Below, one piece after another: positions 36,578 through 52,543 of a stretch of 64,000 bases of DNA. The notes under the pieces are model-generated. The model saw nothing but the letters and a program-made list of their open reading frames with translations, was not told the DNA's origin and ran no database searches. Source of the DNA: Alloprevotella tannerae ATCC 51259. Lineage in GTDB: Bacteria; Bacteroidota; Bacteroidia; Bacteroidales; Bacteroidaceae. Made by a program: the position numbers and the translations under genes. Within the stretch, counting starts at the first letter, position 1, and each line of letters starts with the position of its first letter. The stretch lies in the NCBI RefSeq assembly GCF_000159995.1, contig NZ_GG700642.1:1196242-1260241 (forward strand), read 5' to 3'.

Positions 36578-37420
36578 TTATTGCTTAGAGCAATCGCTTT
36601 CAGCCTTCACGTTGGCCTCTACTTGGCGCGTTTTGAGCAGCAAGATGCCTTTCTTACCGCGTTCGCCGTATTTTGCAGTCGCGTCCTCACCTTGTAGAAG
36701 CTGCACGGAAGCGATATCCGAACTTTTTATCGCAGCTAAAGCGGCGTTATCTGTGATTTCTTTGCCGTCAACCACGATGATGAAATCTGTTTTCTCACGC
36801 AATTCTTGCAAATTCTTAACACGAAAATCCAAACGTGAGATCCAACCTTTTTCAGACGAAAGTTTTACGCCCGATTGTTGCGAACAGTTTTCCGAAGAAC
36901 GACACTCTCCCTGCGCAGTTCCTTGTCTGCGGCAATTCTTTTGCGTTCCGCAAGCCTCAGAGTTTTGCCTGCATCCGTTCAGATTCTCTTTGCAATCGCC
37001 ACACTTTTGCTTTGCGTCGCCGCACTTCTGCTTGCAGTCGCCGGATTTCTCTTTGCAGCAATCGCCGGCCTTATTTCCGTCACAGCTACCGGCTTCCTTT
37101 TTGCAAGTCGTCTGATTGCCCTTCTGCGAGCACGGCTTCGTGCCATCGCAAGACGGAGTTGCCTTTCCCAATCTCTTTTCTTTGTTGATCATCTGTTGGC
37201 GCAACTCAGCCGACGTCAGGTTTCTCACCTCACCATTTGTCGTTTTGCTGACAGTTATTTTGCTATTACGGTAAGCCGGTTCCGTTACGAAGCGCTCTGT
37301 TTGCTTCTCTACGCGCACCGTCTTTGCTTTCTTTGCCGGACGGCGCTTCTTGGGGCGCTGTGCAGTAGATCCTACGCAGACCGCAGCCAGCAATAAAAAT
37401 ACTACATACTTCTTCATCAT
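36578..37420 (-). CDS. Cysteine-rich secreted protein with TonB-plug-like C terminus
   Basis: A 280-residue protein I cannot assign to a named family. MMKKYVVFLLLAAVCVGSTAQ is a signal peptide, followed by a very basic stretch (RPKKRRPAKKAK). Residues about 85-180 contain around 17 cysteines spaced every 3-8 residues in a Lys/Gly/Asn-rich context (GDCCKEKSGDCKQKCGDAKQ is typical). The last 90 residues (DFIIVVDGKEITDNAALAAI and KYGERGKKGILLLKT) match the plug domain of SusC/TonB-dependent receptors, which is also found alone in peptidase-associated proteins. The cysteine block could bind metal or form disulfide knots. It is divergent from thrE, with its own promoter and a leader of about 90 bases. 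Confidence 0.7.
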   Translation of the reverse strand: MMKKYVVFLLLAAVCVGSTAQRPKKRRPAKKAKTVRVEKQTERFVTEPAYRNSKITVSKTTNGEVRNLTSAELRQQMINKEKRLGKATPSCDGTKPCSQKGNQTTCKKEAGSCDGNKAGDCCKEKSGDCKQKCGDAKQKCGDCKENLNGCRQNSEACGTQKNCRRQGTAQGECRSSENCSQQSGVKLSSEKGWISRLDFRVKNLQELREKTDFIIVVDGKEITDNAALAAIKSSDIASVQLLQGEDATAKYGERGKKGILLLKTRQVEANVKAESDCSKQ

Positions 37421-45650: not shown

Positions 45651-45904
45651 TTGCTCACTTTTGACTGACGGCCGACAAACGGCCGATACCGCTGATAGCG
45701 TCCGGCCTTTGCATGCTACCGGCAGTTATTGGCGCGTAAAGGATCGACTTTTACCGCCACGCAAAGGCACAAACTATGGCGACAAGTCAAAGTTTGATAC
45801 ATTTAGTCCCCTACTTTCCCCTCTCCTTCTCTTCTTTCTACACCCAACGCCTTAAATGGCGACGCTTGAAACGCAAAAATGACCGCAAGAAGGCGGCTTT
45901 CGTT

Positions 45905-45989
45905 TTCGTTTGGTGGCGGCAAACAATAGTTTGGTCCCACCAAACCATAGTTTGTTCCCGGCAAACGATAGTTTGGCAGCAGCAAACAA
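45905..45989. repeat. Family A periodic palindromic array, locus A4 (4 units of 21 bp)
   Basis: Units start at 45905, 45926, 45947 and 45968 (TTCGTTTG, then ATAGTTTG three times), exactly 21 bp apart. Inner segments are GTGGCGG, GTCCCAC, TTCCCGG and GCAGCAG. It lies in the 669-base gap 45651-46319 between GT2 and tRNA-Lys. Several frames stay open through it because 21 is a multiple of three, but none shows protein-like features. The rest of the gap shows only the tRNA promoter. Confidence 0.85.
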
Positions 45990-46287
45990 TAAACAAACAA
46001 AAGAGAACAATATAAAAATCAGCGCAGAAGCACGCACAAAGGAGATCTGCCCACCAGCCGGCGCACCGAATGCCCCGCTTTACTTCTCCTTCGCAAGCAC
46101 AAGGCAAAGAAAATCTATAACAGGCCATACAAAGACGGCGGGCAACCGAGAGCTTACATCCGAAAAACGACTGCTCGCTCTGCCAAGAGGCCGCTTCAGC
46201 ATCAAGGCGTCAAGCGAAATAAGCGGAAAAGAAAGCCCTCAGCAGAAAAAAAGTGAGCAAAGTATTTGGCAAACAAAAAAATCATTC

Positions 46288-46874: not shown

Positions 46875-46923
46875 CAAATTTAAAAATTTCACTTGTACAT
46901 GCCAAATTTTTGGTCTATTTTTA
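46875..46923. promoter_or_regulatory. Divergent tracrRNA and cas9 promoters
   Basis: Minus strand: TAAATTTG (46875-46882) with TTTG 20 bases upstream, a full match for the tracrRNA promoter. Plus strand: TATTTTTA (46916-46923, one mismatch to TAnnTTTG) with TTG at 46893-46895, also 20 bases upstream, a candidate for cas9. The two promoters interleave, so tracrRNA and cas9 transcription may compete. The 554-base stretch between tRNA-Lys and cas9 is thus occupied by a terminator, an inverted repeat, the tracrRNA and these promoters. Confidence 0.7.
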
Positions 46924-46946
46924 CAGAAAATTTACAAACTTACCTT

Positions 46947-49900
46947 ATGAAAACCCGAATATTAGGCCTCGATACCGGCACCAACAGCTTAGGTTGGGCT
47001 GTTGTAGATCGCGATGAAAACAACCAATATACGCCCATCTGCCGCGGAGATTTAATCTTCACGGAAGGCGTGAAGCAAGAAAAAGGCATCGAATTTTCTT
47101 TGGCTGCCGAAAGAACTTCTTATCGCGCTTCGCGGCGCCATTACTTCCGCCGGCGTCTGCGCAAAGTAGAAGTGCTGAAAGTTTTGGTAAAGCATAAGTT
47201 GTGCCCGCCGCTTTCTGATGAAGCGCTCAACCGTTGGCATACGAAAAAAGAATATCCGCTTGATGAGGACTTCATACTTTGGCAGCGCACGAACGAAGCT
47301 GACAATAAGAATCCTTATCACGACCGTCACATTTGCTTGCACCGCAAATTGAACTTGAAAGATTCTCAGACGGATCGCTATACGCTGGGGCGTGCACTCT
47401 ATCACTTGACGCAGCGCCGCGGCTTCTTGAGCAACCGACTTGACCAAAACGAGGAGGCGGAAGAGACGGGCAAAGTAAAATCTGCGATCTCCGAATTGAG
47501 CAAAGAGATGAAGGAGGCGGGATGTGAGTTCTTGGGCGATTACTTTTACCTACTCTATCGAACGGAAGGCAACCGGGTTCGCATCCGTTCCCGCTATACG
47601 GACCGGGAAAAGCATTATTTGCAAGAGTTTAAGGAGATCTGCCGCGTACAAGAATTGGACGAGGATCTGGCAAAAGCGCTGGAGAAGACGATTTTCTTTC
47701 AGCGCCCGCTAAAATCCCAGCGCCAAGGCGTAGGTAAATGCACGATGGAGAAAGGCCATTCGCGCTGCGCCGTCTCGCATCCTTTATATGAGGAATATCG
47801 ACTGCTCTGTTATCTCAACAATATCCGAATCAAAACGCCATCGGATGATCGTTTGCGTCCATTAAATGCGGAGGAGCGAGAGAAAATCACTCCCCTCTTC
47901 TACAAAGAAAAGAACTTCGACTTCGAAAAGATTGCTAAAAAGCTCGCAGGAAAAACGCCTTTTGGCTGGATAAGAGATGCGGAGGATTGGCCTTACCAAT
48001 TTAATTATCGCATGACGCAAGAGGCGCCGGCCTGTCCCACAACTGCACAACTAATAAAGGTCTTTGGCGAAGATTGGAAAGCAGCATTGGCTGAAACTTA
48101 CACGATGAGCGCCAAGCAGGACGGGACGTTAAAAACAGAAGATGAGATTTGCACGGACATTTGGAACGTGCTCTATTCTTTTTCTTCAAAAGAAAAGCTG
48201 AAGGAGTTCGGGTTAAAGAAACTGCAACTGGATGAAGTGCAAGCCAAAGCTTTCTCGGAAATTCGCCTGACACGTGACTTTGCCTCGCTAAGTTTGAAGG
48301 CAATACGCAAAATTCTTTTCTTCTTGCGCACAGGCGAAGACTATTCGAAGGCTATCTTTTTGGCAAACATCCCAACAATTGTCGGTGAAGAAATATGGAA
48401 CGACATTGAGCGACGCTCTCGCTTGCTATATAAAGTCGATCTTGCCCTTCGGCCGCAAGAAGAGCGCGATGCAGAAGAGCATCGCACAATCGCAGAGCGC
48501 ATCAAAGCGGCTGTAGCGGCAGAAGTGCCTGATGCGCCGATCGATTTGCTGTATCACCCCTCAATGATTGAGGCCTATCCGGACGCCAAGCGAAACGAGC
48601 GCTTCGATTGCTACCAACTGGGCTCTCCGAAGACGAACGCTGTGCGCAATCCGATGGCTATGCGCTCGCTGCATATGGTGCGCAAAGTAATCAACCACTT
48701 GCTGCGCAAGCATATCATTGATGAGAAGACTGAAATACACATTGAATATGCGCGCGAACTGAACGATGCCAACAAGCGCCAAGCCATTGCCGATTGGCAA
48801 CGCGAGCTAAGCAAACGGCACACAGCATATGCGCAAAACATTAGGCAACTCTATAAAGCTGAAACCGGCTTAGTGATTGAGCCGACGAAGGCAGACATCT
48901 TAAAATATCAACTCTGGGAAGAGCAGCAACACGTCTGCTTGTACACAGGTAAAAAGATCGGCATCGCAGACTTCTTGGGCGCAAATCCGAAGTTTGACAT
49001 CGAGCACACTATCCCGCGCAGCAGGGGTGGCGATAGCACACAAGAGAACTTAACGCTTTGCGAGAGTAAGTTCAACCGCGACATCAAGCGCGACAAGCTG
49101 CCCACAGAATTAGCCAACTATGAAGAAATCTTAGCGCGCATCGAGCATTGGAAGAAGCAGTGCTACGCGCTGAAGCTAAAACGAGACGGCATCCGCACGC
49201 ATTCGGGCCTGGAGAAGAGTATAAAGGATTCTAGGATTCGAAGACGCCATCTTGTGGGCTTAGAATACGGCTACTTGAAGGGGAAATATGATCGGTTTAC
49301 GATGAAAGAAGTTCCTGAGGGCTTCAGTCGGCGTCAAGGTGCGGGCATCGGCTTGATTTCAAAATATGCCGGTCTCTTCTTGAAGTCGCTCTTTAAGGAC
49401 CCGAAAAACCCAAATCGCTCCAACGTCTATGTCGTCAAAGGCGCTATTACGGCTGAGTTCCGCAAACTATGGGGCTTGCAGCAAGCCGATGAGGCGAAAT
49501 CGCGTGAGAATCATACGCACCACTGCATTGATGCTTACACCATCGCTTGCATTGGGCCGTGCGAATACGCTGCCTTAGCTGCATATTATCGAAGCGATGA
49601 GGAGTTCAAATATGGGAGGCGCCGTGAGAAGCCGCAGTTTGAGAAACCTTGGCCCACGTTTACGGAAGACTTGCTGAAACTGCAAGAGGAGTTGCTCATC
49701 GTGCATCAAACTACTGACAAACTGGGCAAGCGAGATCGGCGAAAAGTAAAAACGCCGCGCGGGAAGTTCCTCACAGGCGGCGACTCCGCACGCGGCAGGC
49801 TGCATCAAGAAACGTATTATGGCGCCATTAACTACGATGGCAACATTAAATATGTCGTAAGAAAGCCGCTGGATAGTTTAACTGAAAAGGACTTGGATAA

Positions 49901-50603
49901 AATTGTCGATGAAACGGTTATGGGCATCGTCAAAGGCGCCGTAGAGGCAAAGGGCAGCTTGAAAGAAGCCCTTGCCGACGGTATATATATGAATAAGGAG
50001 AAGGGGATCTTGATTAAGCGGGTGAGGATCTTTTCCGACGTAAGCGAGCCAATTAATTTAAAACAGTTACGTGATGTTTCAACCAAAGAATACAAACGGC
50101 ATATCCACTTAAGAAAAGATGAGAACTATCTCTTCGCCATATATGAAGGTATAGACAAGAAGAAGAATAAGAAGCAAACAGAAACCGCGACTGTCGACTA
50201 TTTAGATGCGGCTAAGTTCTACAAGGATAGCAAACGAAGAGACAAAGCAAATAGTCTTGTCGGTGACTATAGTAAGAAAAACAAGCTCCCACTTAAATGC
50301 ATTCTAAAGAAAAGGCAAATGGTTTTATTCTATGAACACAGCCCGGAAGAAATCAGGTTTAAAGACAAAAAGGACCTTTCCAGGCGATTATATATCGTAA
50401 CATCTATTGCGAAAGATGGGCGCGTAAAATTTCTGCACCATCAAGCAGCCACTGCAACGGGAATACAGTCATCCCCAAGTCCTTTTACAAATGATGGAGA
50501 ACATCAGCCTTATTATCGTTTGTCTGCTTCTAATATAAAGGTCTTAGTAGCTGGGATTGATTTTGACATTAACATTTTAGGTGAGATCACGCCAAAGCTC
50601 TAA
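46947..50603 (+). CDS. cas9: CRISPR-associated endonuclease Cas9, type II-C
   Basis: A 1218-residue RNA-guided nuclease that cuts both strands of a crRNA-matched target. RuvC-I is ILGLDTGTNSLGWAVVD with D9. The arginine-rich bridge helix is TSYRASRRHYFRRRLRKVE. RuvC-II is IHIEYAREL (E600). The HNH domain has CLYTGKK, DIEHTIPRSRGG (catalytic H687) and ESKFNRDIKRDKLP. RuvC-III is HHCIDAYTIA (H858, H859, D862). The last 300 residues form the wedge and PAM-interacting region. All catalytic residues are intact. The size, and the lack of csn2 or cas4, place it in subtype II-C. The ATG at 46947 is chosen over the TTG at 46893, which lies in the promoter. cas1 follows after 7 bases. Confidence 0.97.
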   Translation: MKTRILGLDTGTNSLGWAVVDRDENNQYTPICRGDLIFTEGVKQEKGIEFSLAAERTSYRASRRHYFRRRLRKVEVLKVLVKHKLCPPLSDEALNRWHTKKEYPLDEDFILWQRTNEADNKNPYHDRHICLHRKLNLKDSQTDRYTLGRALYHLTQRRGFLSNRLDQNEEAEETGKVKSAISELSKEMKEAGCEFLGDYFYLLYRTEGNRVRIRSRYTDREKHYLQEFKEICRVQELDEDLAKALEKTIFFQRPLKSQRQGVGKCTMEKGHSRCAVSHPLYEEYRLLCYLNNIRIKTPSDDRLRPLNAEEREKITPLFYKEKNFDFEKIAKKLAGKTPFGWIRDAEDWPYQFNYRMTQEAPACPTTAQLIKVFGEDWKAALAETYTMSAKQDGTLKTEDEICTDIWNVLYSFSSKEKLKEFGLKKLQLDEVQAKAFSEIRLTRDFASLSLKAIRKILFFLRTGEDYSKAIFLANIPTIVGEEIWNDIERRSRLLYKVDLALRPQEERDAEEHRTIAERIKAAVAAEVPDAPIDLLYHPSMIEAYPDAKRNERFDCYQLGSPKTNAVRNPMAMRSLHMVRKVINHLLRKHIIDEKTEIHIEYARELNDANKRQAIADWQRELSKRHTAYAQNIRQLYKAETGLVIEPTKADILKYQLWEEQQHVCLYTGKKIGIADFLGANPKFDIEHTIPRSRGGDSTQENLTLCESKFNRDIKRDKLPTELANYEEILARIEHWKKQCYALKLKRDGIRTHSGLEKSIKDSRIRRRHLVGLEYGYLKGKYDRFTMKEVPEGFSRRQGAGIGLISKYAGLFLKSLFKDPKNPNRSNVYVVKGAITAEFRKLWGLQQADEAKSRENHTHHCIDAYTIACIGPCEYAALAAYYRSDEEFKYGRRREKPQFEKPWPTFTEDLLKLQEELLIVHQTTDKLGKRDRRKVKTPRGKFLTGGDSARGRLHQETYYGAINYDGNIKYVVRKPLDSLTEKDLDKIVDETVMGIVKGAVEAKGSLKEALADGIYMNKEKGILIKRVRIFSDVSEPINLKQLRDVSTKEYKRHIHLRKDENYLFAIYEGIDKKKNKKQTETATVDYLDAAKFYKDSKRRDKANSLVGDYSKKNKLPLKCILKKRQMVLFYEHSPEEIRFKDKKDLSRRLYIVTSIAKDGRVKFLHHQAATATGIQSSPSPFTNDGEHQPYYRLSASNIKVLVAGIDFDINILGEITPKL

Positions 50604-50610
50604 TAGTCTT

Positions 50611-51498
50611 ATGCTCAAGCGCAGCCTTGTCTTTATGCATCCGGCCACTTTGTCTTTACGAAATGGGCAAATGGTTATCATCAGAAAAGAAATTCCTGAT
50701 GATAACCTTATCGTGCCCATTGAAGACATTGGTTTGGTGATGATCAACCACGCGATGGTAAGCCTAACCATCCCGCTCTTGAATGCTTTGACGGAACAAA
50801 ACGTAGCGGTCATCTTCTGCAATGAGAAAGGTATGCCTGCTTCAATGCTCTACAATTTGCAGGGCAACACCACGCAGGGAGAAACCTTACACAACCAACT
50901 CGAAGCCGGCGAGGTACTCAAAAAGACGCTTTGGAAACAGATCATCGAAGCTAAAATAAAGAATCAGGCTGCACTTTTAAACAAGATGGGCAAGGAGGGT
51001 AGCATCTTAAAGCCCCTTTATACGAATGTAAAAAGTGGAGACAGCGATAATCGGGAAGGCATCGCAGCCAGATTGTATTGGACCGCCTTGTTTGGCCGCG
51101 ATTTCATCCGCGATCGGAACATACCGGGTATCAATTCGCTCTTAAACTATGGCTACTCGGTCTTACGGGCAGCCGTTACTCGGGCCTTGGTCTCCTCCGG
51201 TTTGTTTCCGGCATTGGGCATCTTTCATCATCATCGCAGCAATGCCTTCCCATTGTCTGACGACTTGATGGAGCCTTTCCGACCTTTTGTGGACGAGATT
51301 GTATTTGAACTTACGGCCCAAGGCGAGGCAGAACTAAACACAGCGACCAAAAGCCGTCTGATCCGCGTGCTATACGTCGACACATACTTTTCCAAAATAA
51401 CACGCCCCCTATCCGTGGGCTTAAGTATGACGATGGCTTCTTTAGCCAAGTGCTATGCCAAGGAGCAAAAGAAGTTGGTCGTCCCGTTATTAAAATGA
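50611..51498 (+). CDS. cas1: CRISPR integrase Cas1
   Basis: A 295-residue type II Cas1, the catalytic part of the Cas1-Cas2 spacer integrase. It begins MLKRSLVFMHPATLSLRNGQ. Conserved active-site regions are NREGIAARLYWTALFG (glutamate), LGIFHHHRSNAFPLSDDLME (histidine), and DLMEPFRPFVD with its acidic residues. The start at 50611 is used because the GTG at 50581 overlaps the end of cas9 and adds a low-quality extension. The stop codon overlaps the cas2 ATG (ATGA), so the adaptation genes are translationally coupled. Confidence 0.96.
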   Translation: MLKRSLVFMHPATLSLRNGQMVIIRKEIPDDNLIVPIEDIGLVMINHAMVSLTIPLLNALTEQNVAVIFCNEKGMPASMLYNLQGNTTQGETLHNQLEAGEVLKKTLWKQIIEAKIKNQAALLNKMGKEGSILKPLYTNVKSGDSDNREGIAARLYWTALFGRDFIRDRNIPGINSLLNYGYSVLRAAVTRALVSSGLFPALGIFHHHRSNAFPLSDDLMEPFRPFVDEIVFELTAQGEAELNTATKSRLIRVLYVDTYFSKITRPLSVGLSMTMASLAKCYAKEQKKLVVPLLK

Positions 51499-51833
51499 GT
51501 GAAGTCAGATTAAACGCTTATCATATTATGTGGCTCTTTGTGATGTTCGACTTGCCTACGATGACCAAGAAAGATCGCAAAGCTTCTGCCCTCTTTCGGA
51601 AGCAACTTGAAAAAGATGGCTTCTCAATGCATCAATTCAGCGTCTATATCCGCCATTGTGCCTCAAAAGAAAGTGCCGATGTACACATAAAGCGCGTAAG
51701 ATCCAACTTACCGGCAAAAGGATCTGTCAGCATTCTCTCCATTACCGACAAGCAATACGCCGGCATCATCAACTTTTGGGGTGCAGAAAGTAAAAAGCTA
51801 CCGTCTACGCCCCTGCAATTAGAACTATTTTAG
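51495..51833 (+). CDS. cas2: CRISPR adaptation protein Cas2
   Basis: A 112-residue Cas2, which dimerises and bridges two Cas1 dimers during spacer acquisition. The ferredoxin-like fold shows MWLFVMFDLPTMTKKDRKAS, the FRKQLEKDGFSMHQFSVYIR helix-strand, and VSILSITDKQYAGIINFWG. The start at 51495 overlaps cas1; the upstream extension to 51450 lies in cas1 and has no family match. The stop TAG (51831-51833) is directly followed by the promoter of the CRISPR array. Confidence 0.95.
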   Translation: MSEVRLNAYHIMWLFVMFDLPTMTKKDRKASALFRKQLEKDGFSMHQFSVYIRHCASKESADVHIKRVRSNLPAKGSVSILSITDKQYAGIINFWGAESKKLPSTPLQLELF

Positions 51834-51927
51834 TACTTTTGCCCATAGAAAGTTACACATCAACACCATTTCCTATACACAAAAGAGTCCCTCAAGGGTT
51901 TCCATCTCAATGGATTATCTCATATAG
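51834..51927 (+). promoter_or_regulatory. CRISPR leader with its own -7 box
   Basis: TACTTTTG (51834-51841) begins at the base after the cas2 stop and would start transcription near 51848, about 80 bases before the first repeat, reading into the array in the direction required by the tracrRNA. The leader is short (94 bases). It contains a small hairpin (GAGTCCCTCAAGGGTTTCC region). Confidence 0.65.
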
Positions 51928-52291
51928 GTTGTGGTTTGATGTAGAAGAAAGATATAACACAACAAGTGCGTCGTGAAAGGCTGTGCGCGTCGGTTGTGGT
52001 TTGATGTAGAAGAAAGATATAACACAACACACTCGACAACTGTGCAGACATTGTAGTGTTGTGGTTTGATGTAGAAGAAAGATATAACACAACAATAGCA
52101 TGATAATGTGGACGATGCGTAGTGTTGTGGTTTGATGTAGAAGAAAGATATAACACAACTTTGCGCTAACTCGATAGCGTCTTTCTTCTGTTGTGGTTTG
52201 ATGTAGAAGAAAGATATAACACAACGCAAGCAGCTGCTTTGCACCTTGCGCCACAGTTGTGGTTTGATGTAGAAGAAAGATATAACGCAAT
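51928..52291 (+). CRISPR. Type II-C CRISPR array, 6 repeats and 5 spacers
   Basis: The 36-base repeat begins GTTGTGGTTTGATGTAGAAG and ends GATATAACACAAC. Copies start at 51928, 51993, 52058, 52124, 52190 and 52256. Spacers are 29, 29, 30, 30 and 30 bases. The first five repeats are identical; the last ends GCAAT instead of ACAAC, marking the old, leader-distal end. Transcription on the plus strand is supported by tracrRNA complementarity, the leader promoter and the position of the degenerate repeat. No spacer has an evident match elsewhere in the window. Confidence 0.98.
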
Positions 52292-52543
52292 TTCTTGCGG
52301 TATATTTCAAAGGTTTTGTGGTTATTTCCTTGCCATAGTCGTGAGAACATCCGATATTTGCATCGTCTTTTCACTGACGCTAAGGAGCGGAAAACCTTGG
52401 TAGTAAATGGGTCTTTATCATATAAGCGAGAGCTGAGTTAGAGAAAGGAAAAACTACCGCCTTTTTATTCCTCTTCTTCCTCTTTTTTTTGTGGTCGTAT
52501 TTATTACGCGCCATTGTGCGTTAATATTGTTATGGAGGCTTCG

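Follow-up and report, generated by a model that had tools for sequence, protein, structure and literature searches.

Metallothioneins usually use CC, CXC and/or CXXC motifs at a cysteine content of about 30% (PMC6981760). In Alloprevotella tannerae ATCC 51259 we analysed a stretch of 64,000 nucleotides, called the window in the following, which codes for a protein with a block of many cysteines, as in metallothioneins. The block is also free of aromatic residues. In contrast to metallothioneins, however, cysteine makes up 16% of it, 15 of 92 residues, with no CxC and one CxxC, and the protein is secreted and fused to a plug-like module. Clusters of CC, CxC and CxxC at about 30% cysteine are not found in the window protein. 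Judged by its sequence, it is probably not a classical metallothionein.

With the SusC/RagA receptors the protein shares the second half of the plug, both by sequence and by fold, but it lacks the first plug half, the barrel and the carboxypeptidase-like N-terminal domain of these receptors. The same half-plug is found at or near the C-terminus of periplasm-facing M56 (BlaR1) peptidases from the family and order to which the organism belongs (L180, L181, L183, L096 and L097). The window protein carries its cysteine block instead and has no membrane helices, no peptidase and no TonB_C domain. Small secreted plug proteins (L057, L014, L007 and L036) likewise consist of a signal peptide and a half-plug without a barrel, yet they do not have the cysteine block. 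Finally, small Cys/Lys-rich proteins (L136, L144, L154 and others) have, like the window protein, a secretion signal, a cationic cysteine-rich part of low complexity and no CxC. They differ in being shorter and denser (11-23% Cys, 28-44% Lys), in often using C-x3-C and in being devoid of a plug.

Organization of the gene and its surroundings

The open reading frame at positions 36578-37420 is genuine. It lies on the minus strand, fills exactly these positions, codes for 280 amino acids and is present in a single copy in the source genome. The original prediction had placed the signal peptide, the cysteine block and the plug-like domain in this order, and this order is right:

36578..37420, minus strand: whole gene of a secreted Cys-rich protein with a C-terminal half-plug, 280 aa (open reading frame and translation, single copy)
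37358..37420, minus strand: signal peptide, residues 1-21, MMKKYVVFLLLAAVCVGSTAQ (direct reading of the sequence; helix 5-16 in the model)
37151..37357, minus strand: basic linker, residues 22-90 (strand pair and a helix at 57-84 in the model)
36884..37150, minus strand: cysteine-rich block, residues 91-179, 15 cysteines, predicted to be disordered (cysteine positions, pLDDT, spacing)
36984..37058, minus strand: 21-nt tandem repeat, 3.6 copies, coding for KQKCGD(C/A) repeats (repeat analysis)
36617..36829, minus strand: half-plug module, residues 198-268 (TIGR04056, E = 3e-8; model and Foldseek; nearest matches are M56 peptidase tails)

The signal peptide is of the Sec type; a lipobox is excluded, as a valine stands before the sole cysteine. 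A search for relatives of the linker (residues 22-90) returned none. With the whole 280-residue protein as query, Pfam gave a weak Gastrin match alone, which we judge meaningless; the Pfam families Plug and Peptidase_M56 do not match.

The neighbouring genes are housekeeping or unrelated genes. Nearest are genes for DUF2807, GHL10, a ThrE-type exporter, a flavin reductase-like protein and DUF4827, and further out follow RecJ, RecQ, PAP2, Omp85, SpoU and glycosyltransferase genes and cas9. G061, a congener, has the ThrE gene directly next to the flavin-reductase gene, as the window does, yet upstream of ThrE it carries another gene. Thus, the window gene was either gained at this place in the window lineage or lost there in the relative. 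The Cas9 gene (RuvC_III and HNH_4 by Pfam) lies within window positions 46899-52300 and is followed by two open reading frames resembling cas1 and cas2 and by a short CRISPR array, which starts near window position 51928 and has about six repeats.

Co-occurrence with metal-uptake or peptidase genes had been proposed as a check. The neighbourhood contains no SusC/SusD pair, no metal transporter or uptake gene and no peptidase. Apart from the flavin-reductase-like gene two genes away, there is no adjacent gene with a metal, redox or sigma-factor function.

The C-terminal half-plug

The plug-like C-terminus of the original prediction is borne out by a profile match, a structural model and a fold comparison. 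The SusC/RagA profile TIGR04056 matches with E = 3e-8 and 32.5 bits (cut-off 368), and the match spans only positions 139-207 of the 981 profile positions. In the AlphaFold2 model, which was computed from an alignment including plug relatives, the pLDDT is about 90 over residues ~211-260. All top matches of this model in a Foldseek search against the PDB are TonB receptors, with the plugs of Cir, SusC and RagA found at a probability of about 1. The best three superimpose with an rmsd of 1.6-3.4 over ~55 residues; the Foldseek E-values are above 0.01, which we attribute to the model being mostly disordered. A sequence search against the PDB gave weak matches to SusC plugs only. The C-terminal module is thus confidently modelled with the fold of a TonB-receptor plug, of which roughly the second half is present, without a barrel.

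As only the later half of the plug is present (from profile position 139 of 981, ~60-70 residues), the module cannot gate a barrel alone. The 280-residue protein contains no barrel-forming region for a 22-strand outer-membrane barrel either. The window protein is not a transporter.

It had been proposed that the protein captures metal or heme and delivers it through the plug to a SusC-like partner. The numerous thiols and the plug-like fold are in line with such a role. However, the cysteine spacing, with CxC absent and CxxC occurring once, is unlike that of the usual metallothioneins, the module is about half a plug without a barrel, and neither a SusC/SusD gene nor a metal gene is adjacent. 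We consider a protein that captures metals, especially soft metals, or heme together with a SusC-like receptor improbable; neither the half-plug nor the neighbourhood supports delivery to a SusC partner.

The closest relatives of the module are found elsewhere. Among the 399 genomes of the family the best matches are M56 (BlaR1) peptidases, headed by L180 (48% identity to residues 209-271, E = 7e-10) and L181 (39%, E = 2e-9); the identity of these best two is 39-48% over ~60 residues. On the basis of these alignments we regard the half-plug as homologous to the tails of M56 peptidases. L180, L181 and L183 combine M56 and TonB_C in one chain, and L096 combines M56 and Plug domains. Chains with M56, TonB_C and the half-plug (L180, L181 and L183) possibly link proteolytic signalling to the Ton system. 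In the literature we found nothing on point about a plug joined to M56.

The half-plug also occurs in small secreted proteins which stand alone. Three congeneric ones, L007, L014 and L057 (L057:7121-7771), do not have a cysteine block, and a further one is encoded in Flavobacterium (L036:5345-5755). The L057 plug gene lies two genes downstream of a gene of the sigma-70 family, whereas the window gene stands alone. In Flavobacterium the plug module also forms the tail of a protein whose gene immediately follows a sigma-factor-like gene (both assigned by inspection); Pfam finds no match in this plug-tailed protein. At both loci (L057:5953-7771 and L036:3649-5755) a sigma-factor gene is followed by an anti-sigma-like gene and by secreted proteins which consist of plug half-modules, and the anti-sigma-like protein of L036 has a plug module at its own end. 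Two weak plug matches were discarded: a 281-aa frame in G061 is antisense, and a 183-aa frame in the source genome belongs to a different plug-like protein.

Search for full-length homologues

When the whole protein was compared with 37 genomes of the same genus, nothing past the plug region was found in other species. The plug domain as query gave no full-length homologue in ten genomes, and the N-terminal and cysteine-rich part gave no homologue in other species in 58 genomes. Likewise, in 399 genomes of the family and 393 of the order the matches were confined to the plug region and none was full-length. A scan of genome contigs returned 23 loci, via the plug region, and a scan of viral contigs no relatives. 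When 295 genomes of the order were screened with a degenerate DNA pattern of the GDCKQK repeat, it was found in the source genome only. Matches to the cysteine block in L079, L084, L085 and L088-L091 are out-of-frame or otherwise spurious translations. The N-terminal matches L080, L082 and L086 are peptidyl-prolyl isomerase-like by inspection and share just the signal peptide and a basic stretch.

As far as these searches reach, the domain combination is found in one species only, while its parts are individually known and have relatives or look-alikes in the family or phylum.

The cysteine-rich block

The high cysteine density is genuine, but the about 17 cysteines within about 95 residues given in the original prediction slightly overstate it: 17 is the number in the entire protein, and 15 are located within 89 residues (91-179). 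Of the other two, Cys15 belongs to the signal peptide and Cys277 lies close to the C-terminal end. The predicted mature protein therefore has 16 cysteines, an even number. The block is rich in lysine, glycine, glutamine and asparagine. Besides the single CxxC the protein contains one CC. Cysteines prefer a distance of 7 residues: at this lag the window protein has 5 cysteine pairs where shuffled sequences give 1.9. Elsewhere in the window no credible gene reaches this cysteine density. A short cysteine-rich open reading frame at window positions 45838-46158 (minus strand) ties for cysteine density and has a repeated QTIVC-type segment; it looks like a spurious reading of repetitive DNA that lies immediately upstream of the tRNA-Lys gene.

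A scaffold linked by disulfides had also been proposed, and an even number of cysteines would suit a rigid one. In the AlphaFold2 model, however, the block is predicted to be disordered (pLDDT mostly 36-48, and <50 across residues 106-198), and among comparable secreted proteins some have an odd and some an even number of cysteines, with no common spacing. The predicted disorder and the variable number and parity make such a scaffold less likely, and we think it very unlikely.

The repeated CKQKCGD-type motif is genuine and corresponds to the 21-nt tandem repeat (3.6 copies, residues ~121-146). That part of the block is a tandem repeat favours the possibility that the whole block arose by a recent low-complexity expansion in a small secreted protein with a half-plug and has not been selected for any function. 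In favour of this also speak the congeneric small plug proteins (L007, L014 and L057), which have no such block, the occurrence of the protein in one species only, and the secreted Lys-rich repeat proteins of related genera (L143 and L155), which have few or no cysteines. On the other hand, the tandem array is recognisable over just ~75 of the ~270 nt of the block. Beyond it the cysteines recur at a similar spacing and both cysteine codons are in use. In addition, comparable cysteine-dense secreted proteins recur across the family. As there is no second member in which conservation could be tested, such an expansion without selection comes close to our own reading in likelihood; we nevertheless lean against it.

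Small secreted Cys/Lys-rich proteins

Small secreted proteins rich in Cys and Lys, 73-121 aa long, recur in the genus, with clear sequences in about a dozen of 58 genomes. Members of the class from the genus and family are L136:6326-6727, L124:5735-6184, L132:5436-5729, L135:6589-6975, L127:6656-6913, L128, L130, L129, L131, L150, L144 and L154. Other genera of the family have more Cys/Lys-rich secreted proteins, some of them lipoproteins. No Pfam family was found for these small proteins, and a literature search for such secreted proteins in this lineage yielded nothing pertinent. L143, L145, L151 and L155 are secreted proteins with long Lys/Ala/Gly repeats of the KAAGPKAAKKEAG type and with few or zero cysteines.

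In 18 members of the class and the window protein together there is no CxC, whereas shuffled sequences of the same composition give about 49 in total; C-x3-C occurs 92 times against 47 expected, that is about twofold. Both sums are over 19 sequences which are repetitive and related and hence not independent. The number of cysteines varies between members, is odd or even, and the spacing is not shared. Their recurrence in the genus and in the wider family suggests that secreted polythiol proteins form a genuine class here.

In several congeners the Cys/Lys-rich gene is located near a biotin-dependent carboxylase-like gene, by inspection of the methylmalonyl-CoA decarboxylase type, and a biotin-carrier gene. 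In the source genome and in two near relatives, G061 and G081, this locus holds no Cys/Lys-rich gene. The window gene could thus be a diverged or relocated member of the set which acquired a half-plug, the more so as a BLAST search with the L136 protein finds the window gene (28% identity over residues 1-89, the N-terminal part, E = 1.2e-5). We note, however, that the comparison of the block with class members gives shuffle z-scores of -0.1 to 4.1, so that the likeness is mostly compositional. Furthermore, a profile of the class reaches the window protein only through signal peptide and linker (E = 0.0026), and the genomic location is different. We are therefore doubtful about such an origin.

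Proposed role

We tentatively favour a species-specific, modular secreted protein in which the half-plug serves for docking and the block as a thiol/metal or redox buffer. The protein would work in the periplasm. Its half-plug may act as a small docking module, like the tails of M56 signalling peptidases and of some anti-sigma-like proteins. The flexible block, without a fixed fold, could then offer many thiols and positive charges and so buffer soft metals or the redox state of thiols. This suggestion is supported by the architecture and the fold, by the best half-plug matches of the family, which are M56-TonB_C-plug or M56-plug proteins, by the further relatives among small secreted plug proteins and the plug-tailed protein downstream of a sigma-factor-like gene, and by the recurrence of secreted Cys/Lys-rich proteins of the polythiol type across this and other genera of the family. 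Against it speak the lack of a full-length homologue in the genomes searched, the mostly compositional likeness of the block to the small Cys/Lys-rich proteins and, the flavin-reductase-like gene apart, the absence of metal, redox or sigma-factor genes next to it. Binding of metals or redox activity by the block is a guess.

A bolder version of the docking idea would make the half-plug a portable module by which the Bacteroidota dock unrelated periplasmic cargo to the Ton/SusC system. M56 peptidases with TonB_C and anti-sigma-like proteins would be examples of such cargo, and in the window protein the module would bring the polythiol tail as a thiol/metal buffer. At present we consider this generalization unlikely.

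Taken alone, the window protein is a single orphan with a novel combination of known parts and is of modest interest. It draws attention, however, to two features which are under-described in this lineage: half-plug modules without a barrel, which are repeatedly joined to peptidases or signalling proteins, and secreted Cys/Lys-rich proteins, a recurrent class which avoids the cysteine spacing usual for metal binding. Should the half-plug indeed be a docking module, it would provide a handle on how periplasmic proteins communicate with TonB-dependent receptors.
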